64,000 nt of DNA from positions 3,100,001 to 3,164,000 of the forward strand of contig JAQJZZ010000011.1 of the NCBI GenBank assembly GCA_030077755.1, read 5' to 3'. The DNA comes from Filosporella fistucella. Its lineage: Eukaryota > Ascomycota > Leotiomycetes > Helotiales. Both the position numbers and the translations under genes were made by a program. The notes below the pieces were generated by a model. The model was not told the origin of the DNA. It saw only the letters and a program-made list of their open reading frames with translations, and did not search any database. The first letter of the stretch is position 1. Each line of letters opens with the position of its first letter. This document shows, one piece after another, positions 27,574-61,900 of the stretch.

Positions 27574-29789
27574 TCAAGGATTGCATAGTGTGGATGCTCC
27601 CCTGTCGATTTTCTCATGGCCCTCTGAGCCGCCAACATGGATTCCCATAGCCATACCGCTCGCTTGGCTATAGACAGATTAGTATGGATTTGAAAGGTGA
27701 GACAAAAGGCGAGCGGCTTCCAAGCTGCTCAGAAGCTGCTCGCCTCTGCTGTTTTTGACAAATGCAGGGCAAAAATTAGACGTACTGGAAGAGGACATGA
27801 CAGTGAAGCATCCAAATGCCCACATTGTCCGCTTTGAATCTGATGATAACATATCCCCTTCTGGGAACGCTGACGGTATCTTTCTTAACTGGTGTCAGGA
27901 AGTTCAAGGATGGCACTGTGGCCGAGGCTGATTGAGAATATGGACTGAAACTTCCCCAGCCGTGTTCTGAACGATAGCTTGCTAGGACATAAAAGGAGTA
28001 CCCATGTAAATGAAACGGATGAGCACCATCGTCAAGATTGTTGATGATTATGTCGACCCATGTTTCTGAAGGATCGGAGTGCGGAATGTATGGAACAAGT
28101 TGATTTTTGTCCCAATTTGAGCGGGGGAGTGAGATTAATGGGAGTGATGGCGAGGACTGAACTGACCAGGAAGTGCGATTCATGAAACCTGTTGGTCGAT
28201 TCCCATCGATTGACAATTTCTGCGTTTTCGCATAGAGAAGAATTGTTTTGTCAGCTGGGCGGGGTATTTCAGTTGACATCGAGACAGCAGCAGTTGCTGA
28301 AGCAAGATCAAAATGATTGATGGCTGGTATCCGAGGAGGGGTGATTTCACTTCCGGTTGTGTCTTGGGAATACACGAAGGGGAATGACTGATTTGGCCTT
28401 AGGGCTTGGTTCGTATATTTGAGATTTCTAGTGAAACTTTAGTGCTGATGGGAGGTTGGATTTTGAGCGCATACTCTGGATCTAGATCGACATAAAAACT
28501 GGAAGCCGCAGGGCTAGAATTCCCATGCCATCGCACAATGATGTCTACTCGTTCCCCAGGATAGAGTATCCCAACGGAGTCGGAAGCATTTGCCTTGACG
28601 TAGAAGCCTCCATCGAGTGTCACAGGGCTGAGGGAAGTGGACGATATCTGAAGCGTGAAACCTGCCAATGAACTAAAGAATTAGAATTATCGAAGACGAA
28701 GGACTGAAAACACACCCTACATTGACTACTCGAAGTCGAAAAGATCTGGAAGAAAACGATCTTGAAAGTAGCCCGGCCCTGTCACTTTCATTTTTCTCAA
28801 CGCATTTGACGGGTCTCGCTGGAGGGGCCATTGAGCAGATGAATCTTCCCACTCCATTCACCAACAGGGAGTCCGGCACAGGCTTGCAGTTGTCAGTTTG
28901 GATTCTGGATTCTGTTGCTGCTTCATATTCGGAAGTGCCGGCTCACCTCACTTCCAAATGCCCGCGCACTTGTATACCACTCAAGGACCTCATCAGCACT
29001 CCGATGATACCAATCCCCAACCATCAGAAGAACCTCGCTCTCATAACCAAATACTTCACGCTCGTCTATTATATGTGCTGGCTTGTGGACAATAAGCCCG
29101 CCATACATACCATCTCCTCTCTGAACTTGTGAATGAGCGTGCCACCAGAAAGTCCCGGCTTGTTCGCTGACGTCAAAGTCGTATACAAATGTCTGACCAG
29201 GTGGGATAGGACATTGAGTGAATCCTACAGCTCCATCCATTAAGTTGGAATTACGCATCTCCAGGCCATGCCAGTGGATTGAAATGCCATCGTTGTCCAA
29301 TGAGTTGGTCACGTGTATGGACAATTTGTCTCCTGATCGGCACTCGATCGTTGGACCAGGGAATTGATCATTGACGAGATATACAAGCTTTCTCACTCCA
29401 TCGGGTGAGCGAAAACCAGATGTTATATTCCAATGGTGCGTTATAGTCGTTGGTGATCTATGCACGTGGTTTTGAGGCTGTAAATGAATGCCGATAGTTT
29501 CCTCCTTGGTGTCAATATCAGAGTAGAAGTGTGGGATTTCCAATGCTGGGTTTGCAAAGATAATGTATGAGGACCGTAACGCAATGATGATGAGGAGGGA
29601 GACCGAAAAAGTGACGCTAATGAAACGAAGCCACCTGTTGACGCCTCGAACCGTTCCGTTTTCATATTCTTTGGTGATGAATTGAGAACTGTCGTTTTCT
29701 TCCAGTAGCTCAAATGTTTCTTCGCGCGTTGAAGTTAAAATGAAAGAACTTGTACCCGATCTCCGTCGAGGATGATTGTGGAATTGCAT
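27574..29789 (-). CDS. Multicopper oxidase (laccase/ferroxidase type) with N-terminal membrane anchor
   Basis: This enzyme oxidises phenols or metal ions with reduction of oxygen to water. The model is complement(join(27574..27667, 27786..28427, 28475..28672, 28716..28882, 28947..29789)), 647 aa; all junctions keep the frame. All four copper-binding motifs are present: HWHGLE (172-177), WWHAHSQ (215-221), HPFHLHGYSF, and HCHVLFHQASGMAM, the last interrupted by the final intron. There is no signal peptide. Instead residues 1-50 are hydrophilic and residues 54-79 (WLRFISVTFSVSLLIII and following) form one membrane segment, so it is probably a type II membrane protein with the oxidase outside. 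The last intron (118 nt) is the introner-like element described separately. The first intron ends in a less common AAG acceptor. Confidence 0.9.
27668..27785 (-). mobile_element. Introner-like intron, copy 1 (in multicopper oxidase gene)
   Basis: The 118-nt intron begins GTACGTCTAATTTT and ends CATACTAATCTGTCTATAG. Its centre is a hairpin with 13-base arms (27708-27720 and 27732-27744, one mismatch) and an 11-base loop. It aligns over nearly its whole length with the 118-nt intron at 61589-61706 in an unrelated gene, including the 5' end, TGYATTTGTCAAAA, the hairpin arms and 20 of the last 21 bases. The frame on both sides (HCHVLFH / QASGMAM) confirms it is an intron. Introner-like elements are known from some other ascomycetes, mainly Dothideomycetes. 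Confidence 0.75.
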
Positions 29790-58924: not shown

Positions 58925-61900
58925 ATGTCCTCCGACAGCTCCGAATTCGAACTCCCTTCACATACGTTCTCCAACATCACGACGCCTGCTACTTTCACAC
59001 CGAAAGATAACAAAGCTGACCCGATCGACGAACTTGCAGCAAGAATGAGTATGGGTGCTCCTGTAGCTGTGCAAACCAGCAAACGCCATATCAATGGCTA
59101 TCTGCCGATTGAAAATTATGGCTTGATTGGAAACATGCGAACCTGTGCACTGGTGGGCATTGATGGCAGTATCGACTTCATGTGCTGGTAAGTATTATGT
59201 TCTGTTTGCCCCCCCGCCATGCCAAACATCCCTCTTCAGCTTCACGCTGAATTTACCTACAACACATTGCAGGCTACACCCCATTGTAGTGCCCTCCCAT
59301 CTTGTCTCATAGACTGCTGACTTGTCCAAATAACAGGCCAGATTTCGACTCTCCATCCATATTCTGCCGATTGCTCGACAAAGACAAGGGCGGATACTTC
59401 TCCATTGCCCCTCCGGTATCTGCCACTGCTACTTGGACCACTAAACAGCAATATCTCCCATCTTCCAACATCTTACAAACTCGGTATATTAACGAAGATG
59501 GTGTGGTTGATTTGGTTGATTTTTTCCCACGACCTAAGCACAGCCAAGTTGTTTCCAAGTCCTCAAAGCAGATGCCGTTCCGCGAAGCAGTAACAGTACA
59601 AGATGAACTGAAGAAATGGCTGGTTCGTAGAGCCGAATGCATTAGAGGAGAGGTGGACTTAGGTGAGAGGATTTTTACCTTCTTTCCCGTTTCGCCTTCT
59701 CAACGCCGGGTAGAGATTCATTGGCACAGGGTCAGGAGGGAAACACGTTCTCTAGATGTTGGAACTCTACCGAGCTGGCGGTTTTACAATTACATCTCCA
59801 AACCTATAGTTAACTTGCTTATACCTTGAACATGGACTTTTCTAGCTTACTTGCTTACGGTTTTACAGATGTTGAGATATTCCCTGCCTTCAATTACGGC
59901 AAGGGCCACCATACCACGGAGATCCTTCTCCCAGAACATCCTCCAGGCTGCCTCGATAGCAAGACAGTCACATTTACGAGCAAAGATGTCAAATTACAAC
60001 TTGATGTGACTATTGATCACGGGGAGGAAGATGCCGTGTCTTGCCCAACTCTGGTTTTCCGGAAGGAAAAGCGAGCTGGTATGGAAGGAGAAGGTATCTC
60101 CCTAATTTCTTGTCCCAGACCCTCGCTCCCGTACGGCAACGTGATATCAAGATTGGCAGGGCCGAAGTTGAATATTAATAATCATACGCTCCGAGGAGCC
60201 GAATATTTCTATTTGACGAATACTAACACATCGTAGGCGTTGTTGCACATATTCATCTGACCGAAGGCCAAGCTGTTTCGTTTGTCTTACGCGAAGATAT
60301 TCCCAACCATGTCACTAGAGACGTAACCACCGAGGTTCTAGACAAGCATCAACATGATACCCAGGAATTCTGGTTTAACTGGATTTCGAAAAGTACATAT
60401 AAGGGGCGCTGGCGTGAGGTTGTGAATCGCTCTCTGCTGATTCTCAAACTTCTCACATACGAACCCACAGGCGCAATCATTGCTGCGCCAACATTTTCGA
60501 TCCCAGAAGACATAGGTGGTGTCCGTAACTGGGATTACAGATTCTGCTGGGTCAGAGATTCAAGTTTCACCATCTACATTCTTCTGAGAATGGGTTTCGT
60601 GGAAGAGGCAGATGCATATATGGATTTCATCAGTGAGCGCTTCCGATTGTCCAGATCTCCAGAAGGTGCATTGCCAATCATGTTCACCATTCGTGGCGAA
60701 ACGGAAATCCCGGAAATAGAGCTAGAGTAAGCCTTCTGATCTCCGATAGACTTATCTGTCTCTGACATACTGCAGCCATCTTTCTGGTTATAAGAACAGC
60801 AAACCAGTTCGAATTGGAAATGGAGCTGCTTTTCATCTTCAATTCGACATATATGGAGAGTTACTGGATGCAATTTATCTCTACAACAAATATGGAAAGC
60901 CGATTACATGGGAACAATGGGTCGCTATACGTGAGATCCTTGGTAATTAGTGTTCCTCATCTTGCTGATCCCCATGGCTAACAACCTTGCAGATTATGTG
61001 ATGACTATATGGAAGGGTAAGAGGAGTGAAACGGCATTAGAACGCTGCTAAATGTGTTAGATCCCGACATGTCCATTTGGGAAGTGAGGAGTCGCAAGCA
61101 AAATTATACGTATTCAAAGGTGATGCTCTGGGTTGCTTTTGACCGTGGTCTTCGGCTTGCAGAGAAACGATGCTTGCCTTGCCCACATCGAGTACAATGG
61201 GTGGCAATTCGAGATGAGATTTACGAGGAAATCATGAACAAGGGTATGCCCATATTAAAGCTGCATCCTTTCCCATCTAATGTATTACAGGTTATAGCTC
61301 TAACCTACGTTGTTTCGTGCAAAGCTACGAAAGTGGCGATCTCTTAGACTCTTCAATCCTCGTTGCCCCTTTGGTGTTTTTCATTACGCCAAATGATCCT
61401 CGATTCTTGCGAACAATGGATCGTATTTTGCTGTCTCCAGAGAAAGGCGGACTTACATCTGCTGGTCTTGTCTATAGATACAACACGGAGCATGCAGAGG
61501 ATGGTTTGTACTCTGATTTTCCACTCTAGGCGTTAGTGACTGATGTTATTCTTTAGGTGTTGGTGGTCGAGAAGGTGCCTTTTCTATGGTGCGTCGAATT
61601 TTCTCTGTATTTGTCAAAATAAACAAACAGGAGCAACTTCCAAGCCGTTCAGAAGCTGCTCTTCTTTTCGTCTTAGCCTTCCAACTCCATGCTAATCTGT
61701 CTATAGTGCACATTTTGGCTCGTCGAAGCAATGACTCGAGCTGGGGTTTACAATAAAAAATACCTCACTCGAGCTGTCAACGTCTTCGAAAACATGCTGA
61801 GCTTCTCTAACCATCTGGGAATGTTCTCTGAAGAAATCTCTCGATCCGGCGAACAGCTTGGCAACACACCCCAAGCTTTCAGCCACCTCGCTTTGATCAG

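Follow-up and report, generated by a model that had tools for sequence, protein, structure and literature searches.

How did two unrelated genes within one window, that is, the whole 64-kb stretch of DNA analysed here, come to carry what looks like the same 118-nt intron, one in a multicopper oxidase gene and the other in a GH15 gene? The answer reached in this work is that the two introns are members of a genome-wide family of related introns in unrelated genes, and we put the probability that this is a family of introner-like elements at about 0.93. The features of the window on which the argument rests are the following.

27668..27785, minus strand: putative introner-like element copy 1, a 118-nt GT-AG intron of the multicopper oxidase gene (covariance model, 130.4 bits)
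27678..27682, minus strand: CTAAT of copy 1, presumed from its motif to be the branch site
27704..27747, minus strand: central palindromic hairpin of copy 1 (antisense model match of 39 bits at 27705-27747)
61504..61556, plus strand: ordinary 53-nt intron of the GH15 gene, just 5' of copy 2, with limits taken from the reading frame
61589..61706, plus strand: putative introner-like element copy 2, a 118-nt GT-AG intron of the GH15 gene (covariance model, 110.3 bits)
61626..61668, approximate limits, plus strand: central hairpin region of copy 2, partly decayed (model positions 38-80; z 0.4)
61692..61696, plus strand: CTAAT of copy 2, likewise presumed from its motif to be the branch site

The preliminary description of the window had taken the two introns to be homologous, and this holds end to end: in a whole-genome search with copy 1, copy 2 was aligned over 118 of 118 positions with 76% identity (E 3.6e-14), and the 20 of 21 terminal bases claimed to be common to both are indeed so. 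The match between the two copies is far beyond chance: copy 1 has matches at 16 distinct places of the 45.8-Mb genome (20 rows, four of them antisense palindrome matches to places already listed). Both lie in sense orientation in their genes and both end in CTATAG. The other introns of the window had been said to lack this sequence, which is confirmed by the covariance model, as nothing else in the 64 kb scored above 12.2 bits; the two additional antisense matches, at 39 and 26.5 bits, come from the palindromes of copies 1 and 2. The gene names were also borne out, the joined flanks matching Pfam Cu-oxidase_2 (1.1e-32) and Glyco_hydro_15 (1.4e-10) across the junctions. Copy 1 is inserted in phase 2 and splits the last His codon (CA/C, the slash marking the site) of the HCHxxxH motif of the multicopper oxidase, a residue that we take to be a copper ligand; the frame joined over it reads HCHVLFH/QASGMAMGIHV, with Cu-oxidase_2 spanning the junction. 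Copy 2 is inserted in phase 0 between Met and Cys, inside the Glyco_hydro_15 domain of the GH15 gene. No second GH15 gene was found in the genome search, and the piece of GH15 protein had no match among solved structures.

The preliminary description had also expected many copies in the genome and had considered the case that there were none besides these two. The outcome was the opposite of the latter: 57 copies score at least 24 bits, so that "many" holds as tens of recognisable copies, and more diverged ones may exist. In searches with copy 1, E values between copies in different genes went down to 6.2e-32 over 118 nt, and the majority consensus of 15 copies found 24 places. Among the pattern searches, each set against a reversed-pattern control, the 20-base pattern of the 3' end (at most three mismatches) gave 45 matches against four, the 28-base pattern of the 5' end 11 against none, the 17-base pattern of the 5' end 150 against 80, and the 24-base hairpin pattern 19 rows, corresponding to 17 places, against none; all 17 hairpin places lie inside elements matched full-length by the covariance model. 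This model was built from 15 copies and run on the genome pieces fetched from the DNA and pattern searches. A second-round sample of 40 pieces was composed of 18 places with at most two mismatches, 18 with three mismatches (chosen by eye for a donor-like start, not exhaustively, among the 100 of 150 17-base matches listed) and four hairpin places, and 12 of the 40 contained a full-length match of at least 24 bits. The figure of 57 is a lower bound, since two copies surfaced unsought beside known ones (L065, 1538-1658; L078, 142-257), and diverged copies are under-counted in it. Left out by eye were L050, L066, L084, L089 and L090 (15-18 bits), as well as L049 (24.3 bits, E 0.02), which passes the 24-bit line, would bring the count to 58 if kept and has GA, not CA, as its two exon bases. 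L096 (23.8 bits) and L111 (19.8 bits) belong to the 59-copy set used in the flank-duplication test and lie outside the 57-copy set. Two further 3' pattern matches, L060 and L067, carried no element and were never counted.

The copies measure 62-172 nt, with a mode of exactly 118 nt (13 of 57) and 34 of 57 falling between 114 and 122 nt; this mode exceeds the 42-90 nt of 16 inferred ordinary introns. Two unusually long copies owe their length to internal repetition, L015 (near 1501; 172 nt) to the repetition of a CCCTTTCAA-type stretch ahead of the branch site and L012 (1501-1632; 132 nt) to a duplication inside the hairpin. Copies were also seen in pairs. At L065 (contig C4, near 1.037 Mb) one gene holds two of them, 1401-1520 and 1538-1658, with a 17-nt exon between, and its frame, read by eye, seems open with both removed; at L078 (contig C9, near 4.384 Mb) the copy at 142-257 lies about 1.2 kb upstream of that at 1501-1621. 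A comparison with Rfam returned no match to the element at gathering score and nine weak hairpin resemblances.

All 57 copies start with GT and end with AG (the acceptors of L009, L015, L078 and L118 were placed by hand). With the element removed, 29 of the 36 copies with long flanks have a joined frame that continues without a stop for 30 codons or more to either side, against 7 of 36 in antisense and 6 of 36 with shuffled flanks; judged by these frames, the sense orientation in coding genes prevails. For the first set of 51 elements, a stop was found inside the element in the length-chosen frame for all but five: L024, L068 and L034 have no internal stop and would shift the frame, and L065b and L050 (the latter left out afterwards) have none and would not shift it, the chosen frame of L065b, itself ambiguous, neither stopping nor shifting within the element. 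The frames of L001 and L014 were set from protein motifs. Joined peptides of 26 distinct copies were compared with Pfam: in 14 a domain spans the junction, with 12 of these passing the curated cut-off; of the other 12 copies, one has its best Pfam match elsewhere and 11 are without a Pfam match. The host genes belong to unrelated Pfam families. From these frames and domains we infer that the elements would be introns of coding genes, removed by splicing.

On comparison of sequences, both window introns are gained, since homologs read through both sites. The preliminary description had proposed asking whether orthologous genes lack introns at these positions, and for both genes the protein collection has homologs that lack them. 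For the oxidase, 116 of the 120 homologs listed (152 were found, including Hymenoscyphus at 54%) carry HCHxxxH followed directly by further residues, and in 114 of the 120 the alignment has no gap within 10 residues of the site on either side, among them 106 of the 112 homologs that come from metagenomes and all 8 of the rest. Many of these homologs are reading frames of the last exon only, as from gene callers without introns, so that contiguity there would mean that no intron is present; proteins from annotated genomes are not informative for an empty-site test by contiguity. Among the 120 GH15 homologs listed (of 480 found, including Pseudogymnoascus at 94%), 56 run contiguously through the site of copy 2, and 64 begin at the Met of the site and are uninformative. 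Inspection of several of the 56 showed, ahead of GVGG, residues unrelated to the gene, which is what would result if these relatives have the nearby ordinary intron (61504-61556) in unspliced form. This provides an internal contrast: the frames of the GH15 relatives break off at the ordinary intron and not at copy 2.

Empty sites were also found elsewhere, the evidence covering both window genes and an NmrA gene (copy L029) in comparison with homologs, and the HET and oxidase families in comparison with paralogs. All 120 NmrA homologs listed, which include Phialocephala, Cadophora, Mollisia and others at 56-59%, span the site, 118 of them with insertions of at most three residues and 75 entirely gap-free for 10 residues either side; the other two carry 17 and 25 inserted residues close to it. 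Within the genome, 18 of 20 further matches to the oxidase are continuous across the junction, and 121 of 124 HET rows, 109 of them without a stop, cross the site that is split by a 62-nt copy, two of the three that do not cross being the halves of the split HET gene itself. As observations on the gene families themselves, the 124 matching rows of the HET-domain query amount to a large expansion of heterokaryon-incompatibility-type genes in this genome, and the oxidase query has matches at about 20 further places.

The point of entry is not indifferent to sequence. Immediately before the donor, 33 of 57 copies have CA as their last two exon bases, where the background is 7% (P 1e-23), and A occupies position -1 in 43 of 57; over the 12 upstream positions only -2 and -1 are informative (0.43 and 0.79 bits), all others having at most 0.08 bits. 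CA precedes the donor in none of 22 inferred ordinary introns of the same sequences (Fisher P 4e-7), a control that is small and noisy: the 40-codon setting yields these 22 introns with five false-donor hits and no CA, a setting of 30 codons 32 introns with nine false-donor hits and one CA, and a setting of 50 codons 13 introns with two false-donor hits and no CA. The youngest group has CA in 9 of 13 copies. In the oxidase, the CA predates the insertion, as the split codon encodes a His that is conserved in homologs, and in the HET gene the CA belongs to the Gln of CINQ/AD, presumably a conserved residue. Phase 2 accounts for 18 of the 29 CA copies with an assigned phase, compared with 28% of exon CA in that register (P 1.6e-4). 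Since it is AG before GT that pairing with U1 would favour, the demands of splicing alone do not predict CA. The G found at +2 in 26 of 57 copies departs from base composition (P 5e-4) but was set aside, since the ordinary introns, with 8 of 22, are not clearly different. It is conceivable, and we advance it tentatively, that the preference for CA reflects a true target-site specificity, with entry at CA/N on the coding strand, preferentially inside CAN (His/Gln) codons, by an inserting agent that reads sequence.

The burst of copying is not very recent, because identity to the consensus is 60-91% (median 0.75) and even the best pair of copies is only 92.5% identical, the pairwise median being 0.61. 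In the star-like tree, terminal branches add up to 12.96 and internal ones to 1.54, and a younger group of 13 copies stands out (support 0.85). The hairpin is near-perfect in consensus-like copies and its stability falls with divergence (rho -0.65 between z and score); a z below -2 is reached by no more than 17 of 57 copies, and most copies are therefore now without a stable hairpin. It is flanked on both sides by TTTGTC, and in the 62-nt copies L085 (159-220) and L087 (123-184) it is missing exactly between these two direct repeats. The two group apart, L085 with L004 (support 0.96) and L087 with L001 (0.87), and since these partners are different full-length copies, the grouping points to a loss of the hairpin in two separate deletions, which left introns of ordinary length. 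Covariation within the hairpin exceeds that in shuffles (20 double-changed cells against 7.0), but no conclusion is drawn from it: the alignment had been fitted to the structure, the antisense palindrome of L002 makes up one of its 38 rows, and the copies share ancestry. No strong RIP-like bias was found, with C>T at 0.16 and T>C at 0.13 per site.

A target-site duplication was not found as a feature of the family: the longest stretch common to both flanks has a mean of 3.39, where permuted pairs have 3.29 +- 0.11, and flanks that match exactly end to end over at least 3 were found in 2 of 59 copies, against 1.7 expected. Nor were terminal inverted repeats seen in the consensus ends, as inspected by eye only; the symmetry that was found is central. 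One copy is an exception, with the 9-bp direct repeat AATCATCAG at both ends and an acceptor AG supplied by the repeat copy, although a 9-nt match was reached in 11 of 200 permutations and may thus be due to chance.

L009, 1501-1625, contig C9 near 4.96 Mb: the copy with this repeat, inserted in a dynamin-like gene at its GKSS motif for nucleotide binding

Taken together, these results support the reading as introner-like elements that the preliminary description had put forward, the features of fungal introner-like elements that can be sought in sequence all being found here, and we hold this identity with hardly less confidence when it is taken together with the events that the sequences appear to record. 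On this reading, a spliceosomal intron with canonical GT-AG ends, about 118 nt long and carrying a palindromic hairpin at its centre, multiplied as a unit and entered the coding exons of unrelated genes in sense orientation, generally with no duplication of target bases; the copies would be excised from these genes by the U2 spliceosome. The spread of the intron may have proceeded mainly by an RNA copy, with the excised intron reverse-spliced into nucleic acid and then copied to DNA, and a stable hairpin could help the excised RNA to persist or to integrate. Older copies would become ordinary introns, some of them by loss of the hairpin between short direct repeats. We lean, with some reserve, towards such an RNA route of multiplication, which is favoured over both repair capture and a transposase.

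Capture of the excised intron RNA, or its cDNA, in double-strand break repair without true reverse splicing, as in the model for Hypoxylon, would account for seamless insertion without duplication, and the resemblance of L009 to a repair scar, together with the duplex that a palindromic RNA could form (proposed in the excerpted text of PMC8469720), would also suit it; CA in 33 of 57 copies is, however, not expected from randomly placed breaks, and we consider this route unlikely. Slightly less probable still is a non-autonomous DNA transposon carrying splice sites and moved by a transposase, as proposed for algal introners. The central palindrome, the clear preference for CA and the direct repeat AATCATCAG of L009 that supplies the acceptor AG are what such an element might show, but they are set against the lack of a family-wide duplication (3.39 against 3.29 +- 0.11, with the match of L009 reached in 11 of 200 permutations), the consensus ends, in which no terminal inverted repeats were seen by eye, the finding that 17 of 17 hairpin-pattern places are full GT-AG elements, and the prevailing sense orientation; ascomycete families are, besides, reported without duplications and terminal repeats in the main text of PMC9860276.

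The two remaining explanations do without the multiplication of whole introns. That only the hairpin is mobile, as a small repeat inserted into pre-existing introns, would suit the TTTGTC on both sides, which resembles a short duplication, and the two 62-nt copies that lack the hairpin exactly between these repeats; notwithstanding, homology covers the whole element from donor to acceptor, introns are missing from homologs at those sites that were compared, no hairpin among the 17 places lies in an unrelated intron, and the grouping of the hairpin-less copies with different full-length ones (0.96 and 0.87) fits two later losses, all of which makes this explanation very improbable. That gene or exon duplication, or chance, explains the likeness of the two window introns can practically be dismissed: nothing was found in its favour, the host genes come from unrelated families, and matches between copies of different genes extend over 118 nt, with E down to 6.2e-32.

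Similar families have been described in other ascomycetes. In the Dothideomycetes Fulvia, Dothistroma, Zymoseptoria and Passalora, according to the excerpted text of PMC4457414, introner-like elements form species-specific families that become indistinguishable from regular introns. As in our family, they are near-identical to diverged introns in unrelated genes and at new positions, and are longer than ordinary introns before they degenerate into regular ones (excerpts of PMC4457414); a predicted stable structure or inverted repeats is a further likeness, in the part of PMC8469720 that cites it. The active Dothideomycete families are 98-99% identical according to the excerpts, whereas the copies described here are more diverged, judged against the published descriptions, and another ascomycete class, Leotiomycetes, is indicated here by the names that homologs of the oxidase, NmrA and GH15 proteins bear.

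The sister stwintrons and cropped sister introns of the Hypoxylaceae, as far as the excerpted texts of PMC8469720 and PMC12403724 describe them, share with our family the sense orientation, the seamless insertion without duplications, a palindromic symmetry that decays in diverged copies and the loss of the symmetric part between repeats. In those introns the symmetry is terminal, and many of them are twin introns nested one in the other, whereas here, by alignment, the palindrome is central and the intron single; neither a nested donor-split twin intron nor a cropped form with terminal symmetry was met in this family, as judged from the alignment. For the symmetrical introns of Hypoxylaceae, the excerpts of PMC8469720 report seamless insertion without duplications, no exonic pattern and no phase bias, in contrast to the CA in 33 of 57 copies found here and the favouring of phase 2 among CA copies.

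In the main text of PMC9860276, introners of diverse eukaryotes are likewise multiplying introns biased to genes, and ascomycete families are given as lacking target-site duplications or terminal inverted repeats; introners outside the ascomycetes mostly have duplications, terminal repeats or both, whereas here no family-wide duplication was found and no terminal repeats were seen by eye. The main text of this broad survey names none of the fungal classes looked for. The statement of the preliminary description that it knew of no well-described family in Leotiomycetes agrees with the open-access papers searched, in which no Leotiomycete family came up, the broad survey being covered in its main text. 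The kind of family is thus already known, and its new parts are the apparent host group and the preference for CA.

The origin of new spliceosomal introns is an old open question. Intron multiplication is a known but rare source of them, only a small share of genomes showing it. The family described here presents the stages from an intact hairpin to an intron of ordinary length together with a measurable landing-site preference, and is therefore a system for telling apart the insertion routes of reverse splicing, repair capture and transposase. If the preference for CA is a true target specificity, this family would differ from that of Hypoxylon, for which insertion is described as random, and the step at which a new intron enters its gene would become experimentally accessible.
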